Assembly (NCBI RefSeq): GCF_016482825.1
Contig: NZ_JAEMNV010000006.1
Location: forward strand, 310,001 to 374,000
Reading direction: 5' to 3'
Length of the DNA stretch: 64,000 bases
Source: Antrihabitans stalagmiti
GTDB lineage: Bacteria; Actinomycetota; Actinomycetes; Mycobacteriales; Mycobacteriaceae
Shown here: in pieces, positions 18,174 to 25,088 of the stretch
How the letters are laid out: each line of letters starts with the position of its first letter
Position numbering within the stretch: the first letter of the stretch is position 1
The notes under the pieces: generated by a model
Seen by the model: the letters and a program-made list of their open reading frames with translations, nothing else
Told to the model about the DNA's origin: nothing
Database searches by the model: none
Program-made: the position numbers and the translations under genes

Positions 18174-19319
18174 CTACTGCCGCGCATAACTCGGGAAGCG
18201 CTCGTCGACCTGTTCCGGAGTGAGCCCGAAGTCTTCGAGCGCGTACTTGTGCGCGGGTTTCCGGTCACCGGAACGACTTTCGGTATGCATCGCTGCCATC
18301 GCCGACTCTGCCGTGGTCGTCAAGGGTATGCCGAAATGGTCGTAGATCCCCGACACAGTCGCGAGTGGATCTCCGACGAAGTCGCGGTAGTCGATATCGA
18401 TGAACTGGGCGGGGTTGTAGTTGCGACGGGCAGCATCGAAGCTCTCGAGTCCGCGGGCCCAGAGGTCCAGTTGGGTGCGGCCGATCACGTCGCCCGCGAA
18501 ACTGTTCGACCAGCCCGCCGTCGCCTGCTCGGACAGGCTGCATGCCGATGCGATTGCTGTTCGAGGTTGTCTGTGCGTCTGAATCACCAGAGCATCGGGA
18601 TAGTTCGCCATCAACGCGTCGAGGGCGAACAGGTGGCTCGGGTTTTTGAGTACCCAGCGACGATTACGGTCGGGGAGTCCGATCAACTGCAGGTTACGAC
18701 GATGGCGCGCATAGGCATTCGTCCAGTCCTGGGTTGCCAGCCATGCGGAATAGCTCGGGACGTCCGCGAGACATTCGTAGGAGACCGACATCGCGGACTG
18801 ACGCAGTAGTTGCCAGCATTCCTCGACCTCCGACGCCGACATGTAGTGCAGGCCCATAAATTCCGGGTTTTCGATGTGGTGCTGCTCGAACATGTCCTGG
18901 ATCCGGCGGTACACGGGGTTCTCGTCCCACGTGTCACGCGGTGGCCTGGGTTGGGGGAACTCGGTCAGCCACATTTCGAGGCCCTGGTTCGCCGAGTCGG
19001 CGGTCAGCAGCCGGTGTAGTGCCGTTGTGCCGGTTCGGGGGAGACCGGTGACGAAGATCGGTCTTTCGATGGTGACGTCCGCATGCTCGGGATGCTGTGC
19101 GAACGCCACCTCGCTGAGCGAGCGCGCAACGAGGGCACCGCGCAAGAACGCGCGAGCAACTTTGCGGCCCAACGGAGTCAGATCCGCCTCGCCGTAGGAG
19201 TCGAGCAGCACCTCCAGCGCAACAAGGTAGTCGGGGTCGCCGTAGTCGGTCAGTCCGGTGATCTTGGTTGCGGAGGCGTGCAGATCGTCGATCGTGCCGA
19301 CGTTGTCTCGATCGGTCAT
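18174..19319 (-). CDS. PAPS-dependent sulfotransferase
   Basis: A 381-aa sulfotransferase that would move sulfate from PAPS to a hydroxyl of a small molecule or lipid. The 5'-phosphosulfate loop is FVTGLPRTGTTALHRLL (about 89-105), and a 3'-phosphate-binding RQPRTAIASACSL segment follows. Start at 19319 (MTDRDN), 4 nt after the DUF1214 stop, so the two are one unit. Across the divergent promoter lie cysD, cysNC and cysQ, which make PAPS and destroy its by-product PAP; this makes a dedicated sulfation locus likely. As I recall, a sulfotransferase gene (Rv3529c) lies near a DUF1214-type gene in the M. tuberculosis cholesterol region. Confidence 0.88.
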   Translation of the reverse strand: MTDRDNVGTIDDLHASATKITGLTDYGDPDYLVALEVLLDSYGEADLTPLGRKVARAFLRGALVARSLSEVAFAQHPEHADVTIERPIFVTGLPRTGTTALHRLLTADSANQGLEMWLTEFPQPRPPRDTWDENPVYRRIQDMFEQHHIENPEFMGLHYMSASEVEECWQLLRQSAMSVSYECLADVPSYSAWLATQDWTNAYARHRRNLQLIGLPDRNRRWVLKNPSHLFALDALMANYPDALVIQTHRQPRTAIASACSLSEQATAGWSNSFAGDVIGRTQLDLWARGLESFDAARRNYNPAQFIDIDYRDFVGDPLATVSGIYDHFGIPLTTTAESAMAAMHTESRSGDRKPAHKYALEDFGLTPEQVDERFPSYARQ

Positions 19320-19323
19320 CGGT

Positions 19324-22480: not shown

Positions 22481-24321
22481 TGCCGCAATTGCTCCGGGTC
22501 GCGACTGCGGGCAGCGTCGACGACGGCAAGTCGACCCTCATCGGTCGCCTGCTCTACGACTCCAAGTCGATCTTCGAAGACCAGCTCGAGGCCATCGAGC
22601 GGACCAGCAGGGAACGCGGTGACGAATACGCCAATCTCGCACTGCTGACCGACGGACTGCGCGCCGAACGCGAGCAGGGCATCACGATCGACGTCGCGCA
22701 TCGCTACTTTGCAACTCCACACCGGCGCTTCATCATTGCGGACACGCCCGGCCACGAGCAGTACACCAGGAACATGGTGACGGGCGCGTCGACAGCCGAC
22801 CTTGCCTTGCTGCTGATCGACGCTCGCAAAGGTGTTCTCGAACAAACGCGTCGACACGCTTTCATCGCAAGCCTGCTCGGTATTCCGCACATGGTGCTGT
22901 GCGTCAACAAGATGGACCTCGTCGAGTGGTCGATGGAACGATTCGACGAGATCTGCTCGGAGTTCCGGCAATTCGCGATGAAGCTGGATGTTCCCGACCT
23001 GACCTTCATTCCGGTTTCTGCGTTGCTCGGCGACAACATCGTCGAGCGCAGCACGAATATGGCGTGGTACGAGGGTGGTTCGCTACTGCACACGTTGGAG
23101 CAGGTGCACATTGCCTCCGACCGAAACCTGATCGATGCACGTTTCCCTGTGCAGCACGTGATCCGACCACAGCAAGCTGGTGGTGAACTGCACGACTTCC
23201 GCGGGTACGCCGGGACGATCGCGAGTGGCATCTTCAAGCCCGGCGACGAAGTCGTTGCGCTCCCTTCCGGTTTCACCACACGGGTCAAAGCGATCTGGGG
23301 ACCGGGTGGTCGGCCGATCGAGGAGGCGTTCGCGCCGGCAGCGGTGTGTATCGAGTTGGCCGACAACGTCGACGTCGGGCGAGGAGACGTGTTGGCGCGG
23401 CCGAACAATCGGCCTTTGATCGGGCAGGAGGTCGACGCGCTCGTGTGTTGGTTCGCGGATCGATCGACGTTGAGCAAGGACGCTCGGTACACGATGCTGC
23501 ACACGACCCGTGCGGTCAGGGCGCAGGTCGTCCGGCTGGACTACCGATTGAATATCAACACCCTCCACCGCGACGAGTCAGCGGACTCGCTGGCCTGCAA
23601 CGAGATCGGTCGCGTGCAGTTGAAGCTGCAGCAGCCGGTTCTCTTCGATGCCTATCGCCGTAATCGGGTGATGGGAAGCTTCGTCCTTGTCGACGAATCG
23701 ACCAACAACACGGTTGCCGCGGGCATGATCACCGGACCGACACTGTCCGCGTCGCGTGTCGTGTGGCACGCATCGGCCCTTGCCCGAGACGAGCGCGCAA
23801 CCCGGGGTGCCACGGTGTGGTTGACCGGCCTTTCGGCAAGTGGAAAGTCAACGGTCGCAGTGGAGTTGGAGCGCCGACTGGTCGCTGCTGGCCACCCGGC
23901 CTATCGGCTCGACGGCGACAATCTTCGCCACGGACTCAACGCGGACCTCGGTTTCAGCGCTGCGGACAGGTCCGAGAACGTGCGACGCGTCGGTGCCGTC
24001 TCGCAGTTGTTCGCCGATGCCGGGATCGTCGCGGTCGCGTCGTTGATCAGTCCGTATGCGGCAGATCGCGATCGGATCAGAGCGCAGCACGAGGAGGCCG
24101 GTCTGCGGTTCGTCGAGGTCTTCATCGACACCCCGATCGAGATGTGTGAACGTCGCGATCCGAAGGGTATGTACGCCAAGGCGCGGGCCGGCGAGATACG
24201 TGGGTTCACCGGCATCGACGATCCGTACGAGCAACCGGCGCACGCCGAGCTGGTCCTGCGACCCTCCGACGGGGACCCGGTTGCGCAGGCGGCCCGAATC
24301 ATGGAATACCTGGACCTGTGA
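22480..24321 (+). CDS. cysNC: Bifunctional sulfate adenylyltransferase GTPase subunit / APS kinase
   Basis: A 613-aa fusion. Residues 1-430 are CysN, the GTPase that drives APS formation: GSVDDGKST (G1), DTPGHEQY (G3), NKMD (G4) and elongation-factor-like beta barrels. Residues about 440-613 are an APS kinase with its own P-loop GLSASGKST (about 448) and the DGDNLRHGLNADLGF signature; it phosphorylates APS to PAPS. The fusion channels sulfate straight to the sulfotransferase donor. It overlaps cysD and cysQ. Confidence 0.95.
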   Translation: MPQLLRVATAGSVDDGKSTLIGRLLYDSKSIFEDQLEAIERTSRERGDEYANLALLTDGLRAEREQGITIDVAHRYFATPHRRFIIADTPGHEQYTRNMVTGASTADLALLLIDARKGVLEQTRRHAFIASLLGIPHMVLCVNKMDLVEWSMERFDEICSEFRQFAMKLDVPDLTFIPVSALLGDNIVERSTNMAWYEGGSLLHTLEQVHIASDRNLIDARFPVQHVIRPQQAGGELHDFRGYAGTIASGIFKPGDEVVALPSGFTTRVKAIWGPGGRPIEEAFAPAAVCIELADNVDVGRGDVLARPNNRPLIGQEVDALVCWFADRSTLSKDARYTMLHTTRAVRAQVVRLDYRLNINTLHRDESADSLACNEIGRVQLKLQQPVLFDAYRRNRVMGSFVLVDESTNNTVAAGMITGPTLSASRVVWHASALARDERATRGATVWLTGLSASGKSTVAVELERRLVAAGHPAYRLDGDNLRHGLNADLGFSAADRSENVRRVGAVSQLFADAGIVAVASLISPYAADRDRIRAQHEEAGLRFVEVFIDTPIEMCERRDPKGMYAKARAGEIRGFTGIDDPYEQPAHAELVLRPSDGDPVAQAARIMEYLDL

Positions 24322-25088
24322 ACACCGTGCCGATCAACACGCTCTCCGATGCGCGTCTTGCTGCCGAACTCGCTGCCGAAGCGGGTGAATTGTTGCTGAC
24401 GTTGCGTGCCGCCGAGCAAGACCTGATCGACGGTAAGGCGCTCGGTCGCAAGGGCGATCAGCTGGCGAATGTGCTTCTGCTCGATCGGCTTTCGGCCGAC
24501 AGGCCGGACGACTCCGTGTTGTCGGAGGAATCGGCGGACGACAAATCCAGGTTGAACGCGTCGCGCGTGTGGATCATCGACCCGCTCGACGGCACTCGAG
24601 AGTTCAGCATGCCAGGCCGCGGTGACTGGGCCGTGCACGTCGCCTTATGGGAAGCAGGCCAGGGGATTACGGCTGCGGCAGTCGCGATGCCGGTCCTCGG
24701 AACGGTCTATGCGAGCGACGATGTAGCTGTACTTTCCGGTCCTGTCGACGGACCGATTCGAATCGTTGTCAGCGACAGTCGGCCGCCCGCGTTCACCGTC
24801 GACTTGGAAGCGCAGCTGAGTGCCCGCATCATCGGCATGGGTTCTGCCGGAGCAAAGGCGATGGCGGTCGTTCGAGGTGACGCCGATGCCTATGTCCATG
24901 CGGGAGGTCAGTGGGAGTGGGATTCGGCTGCACCAGTCGGCGTGGCGTTGGCTGCCGGTCTGCATTGCTCTCGAATCGACGGAAGTCCATTGCGGTACAA
25001 CGAATCCCACCCTTACCTACCCGACCTGGTGATCTGTCGCCCGGAACTGGCGGAGTCGATTCTCGAGGTTGTCGCCGACCCGCGCTGA
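24318..25088 (+). CDS. cysQ: 3'(2'),5'-bisphosphate nucleotidase (PAP phosphatase)
   Basis: A 256-aa member of the inositol-phosphatase fold. Metal-binding motifs are LSEES (about 65), IDPLDGTREF (about 88) and EWDSAAPVGVALAAG near 198. It removes the 3'-phosphate of PAP, the inhibitory by-product of sulfotransferases, or of PAPS to limit the pool. GTG start at 24318 overlaps the cysNC stop by 4 nt. Its presence at the end of this operon completes a donor-synthesis and by-product-removal set. Confidence 0.92.
   Translation: MNTVPINTLSDARLAAELAAEAGELLLTLRAAEQDLIDGKALGRKGDQLANVLLLDRLSADRPDDSVLSEESADDKSRLNASRVWIIDPLDGTREFSMPGRGDWAVHVALWEAGQGITAAAVAMPVLGTVYASDDVAVLSGPVDGPIRIVVSDSRPPAFTVDLEAQLSARIIGMGSAGAKAMAVVRGDADAYVHAGGQWEWDSAAPVGVALAAGLHCSRIDGSPLRYNESHPYLPDLVICRPELAESILEVVADPR

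Follow-up and report, generated by a model that had tools for sequence, protein, structure and literature searches.

A sulfotransferase locus with its own PAPS supply: a probable sulfation arm of steroid catabolism in Antrihabitans stalagmiti

What is sulfated, and on which signal, where a genome sets a sulfotransferase operon back to back with genes for sulfate activation? The question is raised by six genes at positions 18174 to 25088 of a 64,000-nucleotide stretch of Antrihabitans stalagmiti DNA (contig NZ_JAEMNV010000006.1, positions 310,001 to 374,000; the whole stretch is referred to as the window, and the genome, of 6.39 Mb in 44 contigs and 99.99% complete, as G000). A first-pass annotation, made from the letters of the window, had described the block as a dedicated sulfation locus and had guessed at a sterol sulfate. 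Our analysis indicates that the locus is probably the sulfation arm of steroid (cholesterol-type) catabolism, controlled by KstR and by a local IclR-family regulator; this judgement covers the steroid sulfation arm as such, of which an elimination variant, weighed below, is a sub-case.

Profile matches confirmed all six genes, on the strands that the first-pass annotation had assigned to them. The minus strand carries a sulfotransferase of the Sulfotransfer_3 family (18174-19319; PF13469, E 2.8e-58), dependent on 3'-phosphoadenosine 5'-phosphosulfate (PAPS), with a probable ATG start at 19319 (381 aa); 4 bases separate this start from the stop codon of a DUF1214 protein (19324-20490; GTG start; PF06742, E 3.3e-6, 28 bits against a cut-off of 25), and the gene order bears out that the latter is the first gene of the sulfotransferase operon. 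On the plus strand an IclR-family regulator (20589-21566; HTH_IclR, E 2.7e-9; IclR_C narrowly below cut-off) heads the PAPS operon. It is followed by CysD, the small subunit of ATP sulfurylase (21563-22480; TIGR02039 and NF009214 above cut-off), by CysNC, a fusion of the large subunit with adenosine 5'-phosphosulfate (APS) kinase (22480-24321; NF004035 above cut-off; kinase domain 23803-24258), and by an Inositol_P protein (24318-25088; PF00459 above cut-off), a candidate 3'(2'),5'-bisphosphate nucleotidase for 3'-phosphoadenosine 5'-phosphate (PAP). The overlapping chain described earlier is real, with overlaps of 4 bases (IclR/CysD), 1 base (CysD/CysNC) and 4 bases (CysNC/CysQ). The name CysQ is a best guess, the best NCBIfam model being TIGR01331 (CysQ) with a score far below its cut-off. 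A CysQ-like homologue occupies the same place in many loci.

Genome-wide searches of G000 bore out the dedicated character of the locus: the one APS kinase found (PF01583) lies within its CysNC, and the one PF13469 sulfotransferase, which is also the single PF00685 match, is the sulfotransferase described here. PF09037 (Stf0 family) gave no match in G000, and control genomes were equally silent, so that sulfotransferases of other families may be present. The locus is the sole PAPS source detected in the genome. A second cysDN set with cysH, which the first-pass annotation had proposed to look for, was found at G000:C3 in an operon encoding a sulfite/nitrite-reductase-like protein, CysH, CysD and a CysN of 431 aa that lacks the kinase; the operon of the locus itself contains neither cysH nor a sulfite reductase gene, both of which are at G000:C3.

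For comparison, 40 homologous stretches of at most 19 kb each, from 16 genera, were picked from the best matches listed for 300 genomes, a choice that under-represents weaker matches; adding 20 further places gave 60 loci. The sulfotransferase and DUF1214 genes occurred together in 39 of the 40 stretches, cysD and cysNC shared a stretch in 31, and the full set of six genes was found in 20, two of which (L071, L072) have a different IclR gene. The block is thus kept in many genera, and the grouping of its genes is more than chance. Over the 60 loci the counts were 55 for DUF1214, 32 for cysD with cysNC and 18 for hsaC or kshA.

The divergent promoter between the DUF1214 and IclR genes, ACTAGAACGTGTTCTAAGG, contains an exact KstR operator, TAGAACGTGTTCTA (20564-20577), matching published KstR sites and separated by 11 bases from the IclR start codon. 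With the pattern TAGAAC-N2-GTTCTA and at most 2 mismatches, three matches were obtained in the window against 0.55 expected, and this was the single exact one. Across G000 there were 9 exact sites, whereas the reversed control pattern gave none. The other eight lie next to two F420-dependent luciferase-like monooxygenases (LLM; one of Rv3520c type) and a wax-ester/diacylglycerol acyltransferase-type synthase, all above cut-off, and, below cut-off or judged by eye, next to genes for an acyl-CoA ligase, an acyl-CoA dehydrogenase, a KshB-like reductase, a short-chain dehydrogenase resembling 3beta-hydroxysteroid dehydrogenase, a SnoaL-like protein and an alpha/beta hydrolase. The site before the KshB-like reductase is preceded, 21 bases ahead, by the end of a gene for the mycofactocin regulator MftR2 (L114 766-1479; above cut-off). 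Since the 9 exact sites include several beside steroid-type genes, a KstR repressor is likely to be encoded in G000. Eight of the 10 one-mismatch sites lie within 72 kb (C34:521118-593051).

The sulfotransferase matched PDB 2zq5, titled sulfotransferase STF1 of Mycobacterium tuberculosis H37Rv, with E 9e-162 and 62% identity. The GLPRTGTT motif and downstream Arg/Ser positions were invariant in all 14 aligned homologues. From gene order, we take STF1 to be Rv3529c and Rv3531c to be the DUF1214 protein. In the Mycobacterium-like group g29, the order kshA - Rv3527-like - sulfotransferase - short-chain dehydrogenase - DUF1214 was found in 9/9 stretches from 8 genomes. A table of PMC6429209 gives a concordant order for Rv3526 to Rv3531c, in which Rv3526 is KshA according to PMC4810484; this links the locus to the STF1 operon. 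One Mycobacterium-like genome, G084, has two such sets, at opposite ends of one contig (L134 and L135).

By gene order, the DUF1214 gene of the window is the counterpart of Rv3531c and MSMEG_5932. Kendall et al. 2007 (PMC1995591) report a KstR site ahead of Rv3531c, positive in an electrophoretic mobility shift assay, and a 6-fold de-repression of MSMEG_5932, the Rv3531c orthologue, in a kstR mutant. The Rv3531c-Rv3530c-Rv3529c operon, a member of the KstR regulon, shares with the window the STF1-type sulfotransferase, DUF1214 as first gene and the KstR operator in front. It differs in two respects: the window joins cysDNC-cysQ and an IclR gene to the set, whereas the nine g29 stretches examined have no adjacent PAPS genes, and the window lacks the short-chain dehydrogenase in the middle. 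In relatives this protein of about 260 aa is encoded between the DUF1214 and sulfotransferase genes, and it lay near the sulfotransferase gene in 51 of the 60 loci. It is missing from G000, G001, G003, both Aldersonia places and a few others, and no obvious displaced copy was seen in the seven genomes tried. The best match in G000, elsewhere in the genome, has 36% identity; G002, of the same genus, has the gene in place (79%).

Among 26 divergent DUF1214/IclR promoters the KstR site was exact in 14, had at most 1 mismatch in 19 and at most 2 in 23, a level reached in 1.0% of random stretches of the same loci. Over the 60 loci, a site with at most 2 mismatches lay just upstream of DUF1214 in 39. 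Where the IclR gene and cysD are co-directional and at least 60 bases apart (18 loci), 13 loci have a KstR-like site with at most 2 mismatches before cysD; in four others it has 3 mismatches, and L040 has none. Four Nocardioides/Pimelobacter loci (L108-L111) have an exact KstR site followed by an LLM-like gene (by eye), DUF1214 and, further on, the sulfotransferase gene; their stretches contain no cys genes, and a match to the dehydrogenase was found in L108 and L110. These observations suggest that the locus is switched on through KstR, the regulator of cholesterol breakdown.

Alignment of 15 promoters revealed a further palindrome, GGTACAAATATGTACC, present in the window as GGTCCAAATATGTACC (20521-20536). 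It was counted within 250 bases upstream of DUF1214 at up to 3 mismatches, leaving out five loci without DUF1214 (L054, L146-L149). Of the 39 loci with a divergent IclR gene (the window included, and at least three places counted twice: L038/L090, L047/L091, L048/L092), 38 had the palindrome, and the remaining one, L137, had it with 4 mismatches; it was absent from all 39 loci without such a gene. KstR sites with at most 2 mismatches numbered 36 and 11 in the same two sets. As its presence tracks that of the divergent IclR gene, the palindrome is predicted to be the operator of the local IclR regulator. It recurs before cysD, with at most 2 mismatches, in 8 hand-picked loci of the 13 with the second KstR site, which places PAPS synthesis itself under both signals in those genomes. 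In the window no intergenic gap precedes cysD, whose start overlaps the end of the IclR gene.

The sulfotransferase co-occurs with a ring-cleavage enzyme. It was present in all 4 genomes of the genus that were searched and, across the family, in 300 of 401 genomes (E ≤1e-80; 21 of 31 genera), and the HsaC-type steroid ring-cleavage dioxygenase in 307 (E ≤1e-90), G000 included. Both were found in 298 genomes and neither in 92; two had the sulfotransferase only (G277, G356) and nine HsaC only (G011, G026, G051, G058, G067, G092, G177, G206, G261). Three of the genomes listed with neither gene (G008, G020, G050) belong to genera that otherwise have both, which argues for a functional tie between the two. 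The genes are also neighbours: in Gordonia (L099) and in L064-L072, with the exception of a few uncalled genes, kshA is divergent from the series HsaA-like - hsaC - HsaB-like - DUF1214 - short-chain dehydrogenase - sulfotransferase. In L064-L072 hsaC was identified by homology in 9/9 loci and HsaB was called in 6/9, as it was in L099.

Taken as a pathway, steroid metabolites would lift KstR while IclR answers a ligand of its own, possibly the substrate or the product. On de-repression CysDNC would make PAPS, and the sulfotransferase would sulfonate an intermediate, steroid or secosteroid, at a hydroxyl or phenol group; this intermediate would arise close to the ring opening by KshA and the Hsa enzymes. 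CysQ would clear the by-product PAP, and DUF1214, together with the short-chain dehydrogenase in most relatives examined, may prepare or process the same steroid. Conjugation of a hydroxylated intermediate is favoured: most likely, esterification with sulfate restrains an intermediate that is toxic or poorly soluble, or passes it on. The sterol sulfate guessed by the first-pass annotation fits the KstR operator; the sulfated product itself is still a prediction. If true, this would give STF1 and DUF1214 a pathway context, explain the second cysD/cysN set with kinase in G000 and predict a sulfated steroid metabolite in cholesterol-eating laboratory strains.

Several observations weigh against a steroid sulfation arm. 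At one mismatch, KstR-like sites in G000 number 19 against 12 for the control pattern, so that single inexact matches carry little weight by count. In the Nocardia-type loci L074, L097, L098 and L100-L107, cysD, cysNC, DUF1214 and the sulfotransferase gene are co-directional, the divergent IclR gene is a different one, and no KstR site with at most 2 mismatches was found near the operon; the g14 loci L049 and L050 have no such site either. HsaC occurs without the sulfotransferase in nine genomes, two of them of g9 and three of g24, the latter three arguing against a strict need for the sulfotransferase, and the reverse holds in two. Shared ancestry inflates this co-occurrence, the counts not being corrected for phylogeny. 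Distant relatives of the sulfotransferase in f20 have no DUF1214 or cys genes in the stretches examined, and the main text of the steroid-response papers examined mentions neither a sulfotransferase nor cysD. The substrate, the activity and the expression of the locus in G000 are predicted from sequence. Finally, the KstR2 paper PMC3068626 says that the genes of the regulons may not all be degradative.

This last point also speaks for a different reading, in which the sulfotransferase makes a sulfolipid of the cell envelope or for signalling and KstR merely couples its production to lipid supply. Mycobacterial sulfotransferases of known function, such as STF0 and the sulfomenaquinone enzymes, make lipids. 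A comparable arrangement is the CysD2-CysN2C-Stf0 cluster of Rhodococcus qingshengii IGTS8 (PMC8557817), in which a sulfotransferase likewise has its own CysDNC, apart from a CysN1D1-CysH operon; that sulfotransferase is named Stf0, another sulfotransferase family, and the parts of the paper examined describe no link to DUF1214, IclR or KstR. The linkage to kshA or hsaC in 18 of the 60 loci and the co-occurrence with hsaC are poorly accommodated by a sulfolipid, which we regard as unlikely, though the strongest of the competing explanations.

A bolder alternative to simple conjugation is sulfation-assisted elimination, as in retinol dehydratase: the sulfotransferase would activate a steroid hydroxyl, the sulfotransferase or DUF1214 would expel the sulfate, and the sulfate would be re-activated on site. 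That the PAPS cycle is complete within the locus hints at flux through it; no gene accompanies the sulfotransferase gene more constantly than DUF1214 (39/40); and retinol dehydratase, the curacin and olefin-synthase sulfotransferases and LGS1 are among the fold relatives of the sulfotransferase. Those fold matches are, however, far weaker than that to STF1, and ordinary hydroxysteroid and tyrosylprotein sulfotransferases appear beside them. The DUF1214 protein matches 6ans, VPA0106 and VPA0735 (DUF1214/DUF1254 fold group); its clear fold matches are all uncharacterised, and nothing in them indicates a lyase. We therefore consider elimination improbable. The fuller scheme, in which release of KstR turns on the PAPS cycle as a whole, a steroid alcohol or phenol is sulfonated and DUF1214 or the sulfotransferase then eliminates the sulfate, is likewise doubtful; an elimination step, if true, would be the first function for the DUF1214 family.

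The CysH of the G000:C3 operon scored above the cut-off of TIGR00434 and, with 263 bits against 154, above that of NF002537, a model that bears the name phosphoadenylyl-sulfate reductase. Of the two models that separate the substrates, TIGR02055 (APS reductase) gave 234.9 bits (cut-off 235.3) and TIGR02057 (PAPS reductase) 156 bits (cut-off 254.2). The protein has the CC and CxxC cysteines that mark iron-sulfur APS reductases. Cysteine synthesis in G000 therefore probably does not need PAPS. Assimilatory cysDN(C) operons have the same CysD/CysN enzymes, but the set of the window has no cysH or sulfite reductase and has operators of KstR and IclR type. Upstream of the G000:C3 operon no KstR-like site (best 5 mismatches) and no IclR palindrome (best 8) was found; its first gene contains a KstR-like match with 2 mismatches (L004 6347). 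That the locus is a second sulfate-activation set for cysteine or sulfur recycling, with PAPS feeding CysH, is compatible with the first two profiles and with the assimilatory use of CysD and CysN in many bacteria, and is made very improbable by the separate reductase-cysH-cysD-cysN operon, by a CysH nearer to APS reductases and by the gene content and operators of the locus. A 2010-aa gene resembling a nonribosomal peptide synthetase follows right after the assimilatory operon (L004 11970-18002; by eye, from the translation).

KstR control of the Rv3531c and MSMEG_5932 promoters and the structure of STF1 were already known. In the open-licence literature searched, we met neither a function for STF1 nor a KstR- and IclR-controlled PAPS cycle, the second palindrome or a steroid sulfation arm. 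The first-pass annotation had missed the KstR site, the IclR palindrome, the short-chain dehydrogenase in the operon of most relatives and the link to the STF1 operon. If the steroid reading is true, the locus points to an undescribed sulfation step in actinobacterial steroid handling.

Elsewhere in the window, genes for the binding protein, permease and ATPase of an ATP-binding cassette (ABC) transporter (14459-18173; permease by eye) abut the sulfotransferase gene, to which they are convergent; the binding protein and ATPase match NCBIfam models of 2-aminoethylphosphonate type best, with scores below cut-off. Judged by eye from the translations, 28261-30904 holds an apparent molybdate-type ABC transporter set, accompanied at 27860-28264 by a small MerR/TOBE-like gene. 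Further on, the region 37271-46214 carries argS, a lysA-like gene, hom, thrC-like and thrB-like genes and rho, in that order, as identified by Pfam (thrC and thrB through PALP and GHMP matches).

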